Of a DNA stretch of 64,000 nt, positions 7,693 to 10,874 are shown one piece after another. The translations under genes were made by a program, and so were the position numbers. The notes beneath the pieces were generated by a model. The model had not been told where the DNA came from. It made no database searches and worked only from the letters and a program-made list of their open reading frames with translations. The stretch covers positions 124,001 to 188,000 of the forward strand of contig NZ_NEFD01000004.1 of NCBI RefSeq assembly GCF_002252155.1, written 5' to 3'. The first letter of the stretch is position 1, and every line of letters starts with the position of its first letter. Source of the stretch: Wohlfahrtiimonas sp. G9077. Lineage in GTDB: Bacteria; Pseudomonadota; Gammaproteobacteria; Cardiobacteriales; Wohlfahrtiimonadaceae.

Positions 7693-7730
7693 GGTTAACT
7701 CCTTTGTTGATTTTTTATCGTAGTGGTCAT

Positions 7731-7757
7731 AAAAAAACCCGCCATTTGGCGGGTTTC
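7731..7757 (-). terminator. Attenuator terminator in the leader of the MFS gene
   Basis: On the minus strand AACCCGCC (7755-7748) pairs with GGCGGGTT (7743-7736) around AAAT and is followed by seven U. It lies 40 bases upstream of the MFS start and downstream of the aromatic leader peptide, where a transcription attenuator belongs. The plus strand has only three T after the stem, so it is directional. Confidence 0.88.
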
Positions 7758-7774
7758 GGAAAAATTGTGTGGTT

Positions 7775-7864
7775 TTATTTCTGCATCACAAAAAAGCTCC
7801 GAGTCCCGCAGGGCTTGAAGTAATAGAAATAAAAGAAATAAACCAGTGCAATCATTTTGTTCAT
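7775..7864 (-). CDS. Tyr/Phe-rich leader peptide (attenuator)
   Basis: A 29-codon reading frame whose residues 9-16 are YFFYFYYF: four tyrosine and four phenylalanine codons in a row (7817-7840). It ends KPCGTRSFFVMQK. The codon run is followed at once by a hairpin (7794-7816) and, after the stop, by the terminator at 7731-7757. GCGGG in the first hairpin (plus 7805-7809) can instead pair with CCCGC of the terminator's first arm (7749-7753), giving the usual pause, antiterminator and terminator set. A ribosome stalled for charged tRNA-Tyr or tRNA-Phe would free the antiterminator and switch on the MFS gene. The start ATG has only a weak ribosome site; ATG 7855 is an alternative. Confidence 0.72.
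   Translation of the reverse strand: MNKMIALVYFFYFYYFKPCGTRSFFVMQK
7794..7816 (-). promoter_or_regulatory. Pause/antiterminator segment of the aromatic leader
   Basis: Read on the minus strand, AAGCCCTG pairs with CGGAGCTT with one C-A mismatch, and six U follow (plus 7790-7795). The loop carries GCGGGACT, whose GCGGG is complementary to the first arm of the downstream terminator. It begins immediately after the last phenylalanine codon of the leader, so a ribosome stalled there would cover the 5' arm. Confidence 0.6.
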
Positions 7865-7929
7865 GTCATCTTTTGTACAATTGTTCTGAAATAATTGCAA
7901 GTCTCTCCATAAAAATGATGAAAAAAAAA

Positions 7930-7957
7930 TTGACAAAATGGCAAACTGTACTATCAT
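7930..7957 (+). promoter_or_regulatory. Promoter of trpR-trpXYZ
   Basis: TTGACA (7930-7935) and TATCAT (7952-7957) are separated by 16 bases, giving a start near 7964. The -10 lies inside the TrpR operator. A weaker opposite-facing promoter for the MFS leader may use TTGTCA (minus, 7931-7936) and TTTTAT (minus, 7909-7914), so the two -35 boxes overlap. Confidence 0.8.
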
Positions 7958-7970
7958 GGTAGTACAGTTT
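7943..7970. promoter_or_regulatory. TrpR operator
   Basis: A 28-base palindrome with a single mismatched pair. Its core is GTACTA, six bases, TAGTAC, the same half-sites and spacing as the E. coli trp operator (GTACTA...TAGTAC). It covers the -10 and transcription start of trpR, so tryptophan-loaded TrpR should shut off its own gene and the downstream transporter. It lies about 40 to 70 bases upstream of the divergent MFS leader start. Confidence 0.88.
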
Positions 7971-7988
7971 GATTGGGAGTATTTGAGT

Positions 7989-8273
7989 ATGAAAAATGAA
8001 GATTATAAAGCCTTGTGTGATGCATTATTGACGATTGAGGATGCACAAAGCATGAACGCTTTTTTACGTGATCTTTGTACGCCCAATGAGTATGCCGCAT
8101 TTGTGGAGCGCTGGCGTGTGTGTCGCTTGTTGGCAAAAGAGCAATATTCATACCGAGAAATTCATGCCCTTACCGGGGCAAGTTTGACCACAATTGGGCG
8201 TGTTGCACGCTTCTTAAAAGATGAAAATAACAATGGTTACACCGCCGTTTTGGCAAAGATTGATCAAGCATAA
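7989..8273 (+). CDS. trpR: Trp operon repressor family protein TrpR
   Basis: A 94-residue TrpR-family DNA-binding protein. TPNEYAAFVERWRVCRLL and the helix-turn-helix at about residues 51-76 (YREIHALTGASLTTIGRVAR) match TrpR. The end, NNGYTAVLAKI, resembles the YerC/YecD branch of the family, so it may differ in detail from enteric TrpR. The open frame reaches back to 7938, but ATG 7989 has GGGAG (7975-7979) nine bases ahead and the promoter start near 7964 leaves no room for the longer form. It is followed after 20 bases by an ABC importer, and a TrpR operator covers its promoter, so it is probably autoregulated. Confidence 0.9.
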   Translation: MKNEDYKALCDALLTIEDAQSMNAFLRDLCTPNEYAAFVERWRVCRLLAKEQYSYREIHALTGASLTTIGRVARFLKDENNNGYTAVLAKIDQA

Positions 8274-8293
8274 TTAAACATCAGGAGTATGGA

Positions 8294-9262
8294 ATGAAAA
8301 AGACAGTATTGGCAGCAGCGCTTGGTATGGTGACTTTATTCGGTGCATCATATGCTGAGATGAAAAAAGTTTATGTGAACCAAATCGTTGAGCACCCGGC
8401 ATTAGATCAAACGGCGCGTGGCATTAAAGATGGCTTAGAAAAACGCGGCTATAAAGTGGGTGAAAATTTAGATTATCGCGTGGAATCTGCGCAAGGTAAC
8501 ATTGCTTTAGCCAGTCAAATTTCCTCTAAATTTGTGAGCCAAAAAGCAGATGTGACGGTGGGCATTGGCACAACATCAGCCCAAAGCTTAGTCAAAGCTG
8601 CCAATGAAGGGAAAACCAAAATGATTTTCTCCTCCATTACTGATCCATTAACGGCAAGTTTAGTGACCAAATTATCAGGCTCAAACAGCAATGTGACAGG
8701 CATGTCCAACAAAGTGGATGTGGTGCCACAGTTTGAATTGTTTAAAGAGTTATTGCCAAACCTTAAAACCATTGGTTTTATCTATAATCCTGCAGAAGCG
8801 AACTCCATTCAGCAGTTAGATGATGTACAAAAAGCAGCCAAACAATTGGGCTTAACGATTGTTGAGCAAGCCGTGAATAAAACATCTGATGTGCCACAAG
8901 CTGCAACACGCTTAGCGGGCAGAACAGATGCGCTCTTCATTTATGGTGATAATACTGCTTTAGCGGCGCTTGAAAGCATCGTCATGGCGGCAACAAAAGA
9001 GAAAAAACCTGTGTTTGTGGCAGATACGGATGCGGTTGAATTAGGCGCATTGGCCGCCCTTGGTCCTAATCAATATGATTTAGGGTTAGACACCGCAGAA
9101 ATGATCGCCGATGTGTTAGATGGCAAAGACATCAACACCATTGATGTGGGTTTCCCAAGTGGTTTAGAGCTTTACATCAACCAAGATGCGGCAGATAAAT
9201 TGGGCTACACATTCCCAGAAGCCGTGACAGCGAAAGCTGCAAAAATCATCAAAAAGGATTAA
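8294..9262 (+). CDS. trpX: ABC transporter substrate-binding protein, TrpX type
   Basis: A 322-residue periplasmic binding protein of the ABC_sub_bind family (COG2984). Residues 1-21 form a signal peptide ending GASYA. The mature chain begins KKVYVNQIVEHPALDQTARGI, typical of the family, and contains VGIGTTSAQ, FSSITDPLTASLV and LFIYGDNTA. It is the first of three ABC genes directly after trpR and behind a TrpR operator, so tryptophan (or a tryptophan precursor) is the likely ligand. That substrate is inference from context; the family also binds other small molecules. AGGAG precedes the start. Confidence 0.85.
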   Translation: MKKTVLAAALGMVTLFGASYAEMKKVYVNQIVEHPALDQTARGIKDGLEKRGYKVGENLDYRVESAQGNIALASQISSKFVSQKADVTVGIGTTSAQSLVKAANEGKTKMIFSSITDPLTASLVTKLSGSNSNVTGMSNKVDVVPQFELFKELLPNLKTIGFIYNPAEANSIQQLDDVQKAAKQLGLTIVEQAVNKTSDVPQAATRLAGRTDALFIYGDNTALAALESIVMAATKEKKPVFVADTDAVELGALAALGPNQYDLGLDTAEMIADVLDGKDINTIDVGFPSGLELYINQDAADKLGYTFPEAVTAKAAKIIKKD

Positions 9263-9268
9263 TGTTGC

Positions 9269-10114
9269 ATGATCAGTATGTATGAGTTGGAGATGAGCCT
9301 GATTTTAGGGCTCATCTATGGGATCGTCGGGATGGGGATCTATTTAACGTTTCGCGTGATTGATTTCCCAGATTTAACCTGCGATGGTAGTTTTGTGTTA
9401 GGTGCAGCCATTTCAAGCGTGATGATTAAATATGGATACAATCCCTATTTTTCACTCTTGATGGCGATTGCAGGCGGCATGCTTGCAGGTTCTGTCACAG
9501 GCATTTTAAATTGCTATTTTAAAGTGACGGACTTATTGGCGGGGATTTTGGTGGCATTTATGCTCTATTCCGTCAATATCCATGTGATGGGCGGCATTCC
9601 TAACATTTCATTGCTGGGTAAAACAACGATTTTCACCTTCTCACCACTGATCTATTTAGCCATCATTGCCATTGTGCTTGTGGCGGTGTTCACTTGGTTT
9701 TTGAGCACCAATCTAGGTTTATCACTGCGCGCCATCGGTCAAAATAAGCGATTATGCTTAAATGGCGGCGTGAATGTTAAATGGATGATCATTTTAGGCG
9801 TGGCGCTCGGCAATGGTTTGATCGCCCTTGGCGGCGCATTGTTCTCTCAGCAGCAAGGCTTTGGGGATTTAACCTCAGGCATTGGGACGATCATTGCAGG
9901 GTTTGCTGCAGTGATCATCGGTGAGAAAATCTTGCCATTTCGCTCCCTTTGGGTGAAATTATTGAGCTGCGTCATTGGTTCAATTGCATATCGCGTGGTG
10001 ACATCGGTGGCCTTAAACGTTGAATTCTTACACCTTCAAACCTCAGACTTTAACTTGATTGCAGGTTTATTGATTGTGGTGATTATGGCAATGCCGGGAC
10101 GTAAAAATGCTTAA
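9269..10114 (+). CDS. trpY: ABC transporter permease, TrpY type
   Basis: A 281-residue inner-membrane permease of the branched-chain-type family (COG4120). Recognisable are GLIYGIVGMGIYLTFRVIDF, DLTCDGSFVLGAA and the end segment HLQTSDFNLIAGLLIVVIMA. About eight membrane segments are visible. AAGGAT inside the end of trpX (9254-9259) places the start at ATG 9269. It overlaps the ATPase gene by eight bases. With the neighbours it forms a complete importer, by context for tryptophan. Confidence 0.87.
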   Translation: MISMYELEMSLILGLIYGIVGMGIYLTFRVIDFPDLTCDGSFVLGAAISSVMIKYGYNPYFSLLMAIAGGMLAGSVTGILNCYFKVTDLLAGILVAFMLYSVNIHVMGGIPNISLLGKTTIFTFSPLIYLAIIAIVLVAVFTWFLSTNLGLSLRAIGQNKRLCLNGGVNVKWMIILGVALGNGLIALGGALFSQQQGFGDLTSGIGTIIAGFAAVIIGEKILPFRSLWVKLLSCVIGSIAYRVVTSVALNVEFLHLQTSDFNLIAGLLIVVIMAMPGRKNA

Positions 10115-10874
10115 ATTAGAATCCATCGATGTGGTTGTGGCAAAAGGCACAAAGCTTGAGCGAGAAGTGCTCTCTAACCTAAATCTTGAAGTAAAAAAAG
10201 GCGAGTTTTCCGTCATCATTGGCGGCAATGGCGCGGGTAAATCCACTTTGTTTAATGTGATTTCAGGTTTTATGAAGCCTGCGAAAGGTCGCATTTTGAT
10301 TGATGATGTGGATGTGACGAATGCATCCCAGCAAAAGCGTGCAAAAGATGTCTCCATTGTGATGCAAGATCCGCGTGTGGGCACCATGGAACGCATGACG
10401 ATTTTAGAAAACATGGCATTTGCCGCTAAACGCGGTAAATTTAGGGGCTTACAGTTTTTCAACGGCAAGGCTCAGCGTGAATTTTTCCAAGATCGTTTAT
10501 CGTTATTGAACATGGGGCTTGAGGATCGCTTATCCGATTCCGTAATGAATTTATCAGGCGGGCAGCGCCAAGCGTTGAGTTTGATCATGGCGATTTTGGC
10601 AGATTCTAAGATTTTACTCTTAGATGAAATCACTGCTGCCCTTGACCCAAAAATTGCGGAAACGGTGATGTACTTGGCCAACAAAATTGTGGAAGACTCC
10701 GATTTAACCTGTTTAATGATCACCCATAACATGCATCACGCCATTGAATATGGCGATCGCACGATGCTCCTTAAAAATGGTCAGTTCTTAAAAACATTCA
10801 CCCGTGAAGAGAAGCAAAACATTTCAGCGCCTGCATTAGCGGGGATGTTTGAAGCAGACTTTGCGGATGTATAA
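10107..10874 (+). CDS. trpZ: ABC transporter ATP-binding protein, TrpZ type
   Basis: A 255-residue ABC ATPase (COG1101) that drives the TrpXY importer. Walker A GGNGAGKST is at residues 39-47, the signature LSGGQ begins at 149, Walker B ILLLDE at 169-174, and the switch histidine is H207 in MITHNMHH. It overlaps trpY by eight bases and ends just before a terminator, closing the trpR-trpX-trpY-trpZ operon. Confidence 0.9.
   Translation: MLKLESIDVVVAKGTKLEREVLSNLNLEVKKGEFSVIIGGNGAGKSTLFNVISGFMKPAKGRILIDDVDVTNASQQKRAKDVSIVMQDPRVGTMERMTILENMAFAAKRGKFRGLQFFNGKAQREFFQDRLSLLNMGLEDRLSDSVMNLSGGQRQALSLIMAILADSKILLLDEITAALDPKIAETVMYLANKIVEDSDLTCLMITHNMHHAIEYGDRTMLLKNGQFLKTFTREEKQNISAPALAGMFEADFADV

Follow-up and report, generated by a model that had tools for sequence, protein, structure and literature searches.

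The fly-associated bacterium Wohlfahrtiimonas carries, ahead of a gene for an MHS-family symporter, what we hold with high confidence to be a classical attenuator of the trp/phe kind, in which a translating ribosome controls transcription; when Tyr/Phe run short, this leader very probably turns the transporter on. The element lies on the minus strand of a 64-kb stretch of a 2.1-Mb genome (hereafter, the window), where it combines a run of Tyr and Phe codons with three mutually exclusive RNA helices, is conserved in six species, and is tied to a single clade of transporters (Table 1). What is new is the target, an MHS-family symporter that arose by duplication within the genus: the original prediction knew of no leader peptide assigned to an MHS-type symporter, and the open literature, in a survey that covered few subscription papers, likewise yielded no leader-peptide attenuator on an MHS transporter.

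Table 1. Features of the attenuator and its surroundings (window positions unless a contig is given).
Feature	Position	Strand	Basis
Putative promoter: -35 TTGCAA (7900-7895), 17-nt spacer, -10 TACAAA (7877-7872)	7900..7872	-	invariant block, six species
Leader peptide gene, 29 codons, MNKMIALVYFFYFYYFKPCGTRSFFVMQK (ATG 7864-7862, UAA 7777-7775)	7864..7775	-	sequence; orthologues in 6/6 genus genomes
Sensor: eight consecutive Tyr/Phe codons, YFFYFYYF (4 Tyr, 4 Phe)	7840..7817	-	simulations; run of 5-8 in relatives
P1, long-range helix enclosing hairpin 1:2: CUGGUUUAUUUCU (7846-7834) with AGAAAUAAAACC (7782-7771)	7846..7771	-	conserved
Hairpin 1:2, pause/anti-antiterminator: CUUCAAGCCC (7820-7811) with GGGACUCGGAG (7807-7797)	7820..7797	-	forms in 6/6 species
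Antiterminator 2:3: GCGGGACUCGGA (7809-7798) with UCCGAAACCCGC (7760-7749)	7809..7749	-	MFE fold of regions 2-3, 6/6 species
Intrinsic terminator 3:4: AAACCCGCC-AAAU-GGCGGGUUUUUUU (second arm also GGCGGGUUU), then U-run	7756..7731	-	folding, 6/6 species
Shine-Dalgarno of transporter, AAAGGAG, outside the RNA structures	7705..7699	-	retained in relatives
Regulated gene: MHS-family MFS symporter, 451 aa	7692..6337	-	model match, paralogue tree
Palindrome ACTGTACTA-CCATGA-TAGTACAGT, likely HisR operator of divergent operon, outside the attenuator	7945..7968		motif likeness
Tyr attenuator/PRAI paralogue	L140 1501-2195 (same genome, G000:C8:279421-280037); also L138, L142, L143, L144, L206, L207, L208		

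The original prediction had described a 29-codon frame with eight aromatic codons in a row, and the short leader frame with a run of sensed-amino-acid codons that marks a classical attenuator is indeed present: eight of its ten aromatic codons are consecutive, and the other two form an FF pair beyond the run. YFFYFYYF is the only run of at least five Tyr/Phe codons in the window, and no run of eight or more appeared in 300 windows simulated with a first-order Markov model. Across all six Wohlfahrtiimonas genomes (the window strain, W. chitiniclastica, W. larvae, W. populi and two MAGs, which fall into only three well-separated clades), the runs measure 8, 8, 7, 5, 6 and 6 codons, differing by whole codons only, and every residue in them is Tyr or Phe. 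The window strain and W. chitiniclastica share the peptide MNKMIALVYFFYFYYFKPCGTRSFFVMQK; its counterparts are MNKIIALVYFFYFYFKPCGTRRIL in W. larvae, MNKIIALVYFFYFKPCGTRRIL in W. populi, and MKNMIVAVYFYYYFES and MNKIIVAVYFYYYFES in the two MAGs. Beyond the run, the tail of the peptide and the position of its stop codon vary among species, the C-terminal parts of different clades are unrelated, and two species stop directly after the run (FES*); in the two MAGs, UAA lies in the stretch that separates region 1 from region 2, an arrangement shared with trpL. Because neither stop nor tail is conserved, the codons and the RNA pairings, and not the peptide as a product, are what selection keeps. In three genomes the leader could be extended upstream in frame, but a stop or a frame change closes this extension in the other three, and it was rejected.

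Folding of the minus-strand leader, which the original prediction had proposed, gave three helices whose energies were computed in all six species. The prediction had placed a hairpin right after the aromatic codons and a strong terminator upstream of an MFS gene, and had noted that GCGGG in the first hairpin is complementary to the first arm of the terminator, so that three mutually exclusive structures could form; all of this holds, and the terminator, as in classical attenuators, stands between leader and structural gene. Hairpin 1:2 lies directly 3' of the run at -7.7 to -8.8 kcal/mol, the antiterminator at -14.9 to -19.0 kcal/mol and the terminator at -15.7 to -17.0 kcal/mol; the MFE fold of the full leader contains the terminator, and that of regions 2-3 by themselves is the antiterminator. 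In the core of the antiterminator, GCGGGACUCGG of region 2 pairs with CCGAAACCCGC of region 3 (GCGGG, 7809-7805, with CCCGC, 7753-7749), and a UCGGA:UCCGA block lengthens the helix.

All three helices form in each species despite sequence change: region 3 reads CCCAGAGCCC in place of CCGAAACCC in two species, with the pairing to region 2 kept through CUC:GAG, and P1 (GUUUAUUU with AAAUAAAC) still pairs in relatives, in which three pairs have changed on both sides. The folding energy of the leader lies below that of dinucleotide shuffles in every species (z -2.6 to -4.2), and the antiterminator is more stable than in shuffles in which the terminator arm was held fixed (z -2.7 to -4.2), with at most 5 of 500 shuffles matching its stability. 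The covariation term of RNAalifold was unfavourable (+3); the MAFFT alignment used has two rows shifted by one column at the terminator, and conservation of the antiterminator was judged by folding each species separately.

These structures support the attenuator interpretation offered in the original prediction. When charged Tyr-tRNA or Phe-tRNA is short, a ribosome would stall on the aromatic run and cover region 1 (UUCAAGCCC); region 2 would then pair with region 3, no terminator would form, and the transporter would be transcribed. A ribosome that does not stall would melt or cover region 2, region 3 would pair with region 4, and transcription would end before the gene. Masking the RNA with a ribosome reproduced this behaviour in equilibrium values that assume a footprint and leave co-transcriptional folding outside the model: the probability of 2:3 was 0.99-1.0 with the mask on the first or penultimate aromatic codon, where it covers region 1 but not region 2, lower with the last aromatic codon in the A-site (0.45-0.75), and 0 with region 2 covered. 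With no ribosome and the RNA ending at region 3, 2:3 formed in 38-99% of molecules at equilibrium, so basal termination is not secured by hairpin 1:2 on its own and must be settled by kinetics or by region 4.

The start of the leader transcript may be unusual. A block of the form TTGC-N17-TAnAAA-N(7-8)-ATG is kept in all six species, two of which have a different upstream gene, and the distance from the -10 to the leader ATG is 7 nt in the window and 7-8 nt across species. We rate the promoter as putative because its hexamers are weak and TTGCAA/TACAAA was not listed by a consensus promoter scan. The transporter has a Shine-Dalgarno sequence but the leader ATG has none, and this lack, together with a conserved -10-like block so near the ATG, suggests that the leader mRNA may be leaderless, starting at or next to the AUG. 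An inverted repeat, TGCTT...AAGCA, occurs between the presumed -35 and -10 (7872-7900, minus strand) in several species, is weak in the window, and is a possible operator.

The leader precedes the orthologous MHS transporter in each of the six genus genomes, and the covariance search in relatives that the original prediction had called for found the aromatic codons and alternative pairings kept in all of them. Model R1, built from the same six leaders that it scores, gave them 118-148 bits (E 1e-17 to 1e-23); it recovered no transporter leader in the rest of the order (32 genomes) and, with stricter filters, none in 369 genomes across the class. In a set of 79 loci, every orthologue from outside the genus lacks a terminator within 200 bases of the gene start. 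Candidate leaders before the 65%-identical paralogue, or before orthologues in Orbaceae, Morganellaceae and Burkholderiales, were rejected as chance aromatic-looking frames that have no terminator near the gene. In the W. populi assembly (L036 2492-2770) the leader region is duplicated beside an N, almost certainly an assembly artefact.

The regulated gene probably encodes an MHS-type (TIGR00883-like) symporter: its product matches the full model with E 2.4e-79 but, at 267 bits, stays below the cut-off of 443. It is 99% identical to its counterpart in W. chitiniclastica DSM 18708. In a tree of these proteins, the leader-bearing transporters form one clade (100/100), sister to a clade of leaderless Wohlfahrtiimonas paralogues that are 65% identical to the transporter and have diverged less: the stem of the leader-bearing clade measures 0.83 changes per site, versus 0.16 for the paralogue clade. 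Such a topology fits a history in which the gene was duplicated at the level of the genus and one copy then captured the attenuator and changed fast. The transporter presumably imports Tyr, Phe or a precursor, although neither neighbours nor PDB relatives nor characterised homologues point to a definite substrate: the only PDB match was a phosphate transporter (2e-6), and gene neighbourhood, tried as a guide, was uninformative. pheA is present in every genome of the family, and no aromatic leader precedes it in the genome of the window strain.

On the divergent side (7938-10874, plus strand) lie a TrpR-family regulator and an ABC transporter annotated as TrpX-like. A regulon study names the regulator/ABC operon of W. 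chitiniclastica HisR-HisXYZ (PMC9413887), and the proteobacterial HisR motif given there is similar to the palindrome at 7945-7968; the genes are very likely hisR-hisXYZ, and a reading as TrpR with a Trp transporter operon was rejected in favour of this one. The palindrome overlaps an 11/12 plus-strand promoter match, and hisR probably starts at an ATG near 7989, downstream of it. In the two MAG species (L035, L038, 2444-2775), an SMR-family-like gene adjoins the transporter leader in the place that hisR occupies in the others. Elsewhere in the window, a preQ1 riboswitch (RF00522, 43.3 bits) occurs at 775-819 on the plus strand, just upstream of queuosine genes, and queC, queD and queE-like frames at 824-2615 were named by eye.

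The covariance search also led to a pure-Tyr leader (e.g., MNQFFANYYYYYYLHKREI, MNLNFATYYYYYYLHHAGGIVVRG) before a gene for a PRAI-like protein, a paralogue of TrpF, in six Wohlfahrtiimonas genomes and two of the sister genus. It contains five or six consecutive Tyr codons, one of them replaced by Asp in W. chitiniclastica. In the paralogue, Ser replaces the catalytic Cys and the catalytic Asp of true TrpF is lost; a normal TrpCF is also present in each of the eight genomes. Model R2, built on this Tyr leader, scored 50-59 bits against the transporter leaders of four species and 50 bits against the trpE leader of the genus, cross-matches that suggest, without proving, common descent of the three kinds of leader. 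A tentative extension, which we consider rather less probable than not, is that one trp-type attenuator was re-used through its sensor codons (Trp for trpE, Tyr for the dead TrpF paralogue, Tyr/Phe for a new, fast-diverging transporter with a possibly leaderless leader mRNA), and that aromatic regulation was thereby rebuilt from attenuators without TyrR.

Among known systems, the leader resembles Phe_leader (RF01859), the pheA and pheST attenuators of enterobacteria, in its aromatic-codon leader peptide, its 1:2, 2:3 and 3:4 helices and its terminator; here, however, Tyr codons are as frequent as Phe codons, and the target, in all six genomes, is an MHS transporter and not a phenylalanine biosynthesis enzyme or a tRNA synthetase gene. 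Its full-length match to the Phe_leader model, at 36.5 bits, is the best in this genome but falls below the cut-off of 55, and the many weak matches of such whole-genome searches make the scores useful only for ranking. The same layout and GCGGG/CCCGC core recur in Trp_leader (RF00513) and in the trp attenuator of the genus (MTHFTQYLWWHISSSREMVLCVQ), in which the sensor codons are Trp rather than Tyr/Phe; the Trp_leader model gave the transporter leader 27.6 bits, below the Rfam cut-off of 41. Trp-codon leaders (MTHFTQYLWWHISSSREMVLCVQ, MNNNVFSFNFWWQISREREI) precede trp genes in the genus and its sister genus (L228; L127/L231), and that before the trpE-like gene (L228, G000:C1:672326-672440) is similar to the Tyr leader that precedes the TrpF paralogue. 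In Firmicutes, Tyr or Phe T-boxes control aromatic amino acid transporters of other families, NhaC and NSS (PMC2494555); these too are amino-acid-specific RNA attenuators on transporter genes, but T-boxes bind tRNA directly, whereas the sensor proposed here is the translating ribosome. E. coli assigns the same presumed physiological task, control of aromatic amino acid transporters, to TyrR, a protein repressor/activator, and no TyrR domain was detected in the Wohlfahrtiimonas family: the TyrR helix-turn-helix model, which found its E. coli control, had no match in 18 family genomes.

That an aromatic run and an ordinary terminator came to stand before the gene by chance has a negligible probability: although the AT-rich region favours TWY codons, the simulations produced no such run, and its conservation in six species, with length changes by whole codons, refutes this reading. 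Also highly improbable is a reading in which the product of the frame is a small membrane protein with a function of its own and the hairpins only end the transcript. The peptide is hydrophobic and conserved at its start, and MIALVYFFYFYYF could pass for a short transmembrane segment; however, the run admits only Tyr and Phe, never Leu, Ile, Val or Ala, its length varies, the C-terminal part differs between clades or is missing after FES*, and the antiterminator is conserved as RNA. Attenuation may instead be real, with the run sensing how fast translation proceeds in general (aromatic-tRNA supply, antibiotics), and the cargo something other than Tyr/Phe, for example a shikimate-pathway intermediate or an unrelated carboxylate. 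We regard this as a serious minority possibility, since MHS relatives, by weak model matches, include shikimate, proline/betaine and dicarboxylate carriers, no neighbour fixes the substrate, and pheA is at hand for phenylalanine biosynthesis. In classical attenuators, however, the sensor codon generally corresponds to the product of the gene under control, and a precursor from the pathway would also be consistent with the leader.

Action of the terminated leader RNA or the peptide in trans, besides or instead of attenuation, is very unlikely. Termination would leave an RNA of about 130 nt, GGGACTCGGA is strongly conserved, and peTrpL of Sinorhizobium has been reported to act in trans (PMC7298713), but the double pairing duty of the conserved block fully explains it, and no target or trans phenotype is known. 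The attenuation proposed here, by a ribosome translating the Tyr/Phe run, extends leader-peptide attenuation to a new type of transporter in Gammaproteobacteria, and assigns to an MHS symporter a testable signal and a probable class of substrate. Aromatic metabolism in this lineage seems to rest on several related attenuators, and a lineage so equipped, in which no TyrR was detected, is a good place to study how the amino acid specificity of attenuators changes.
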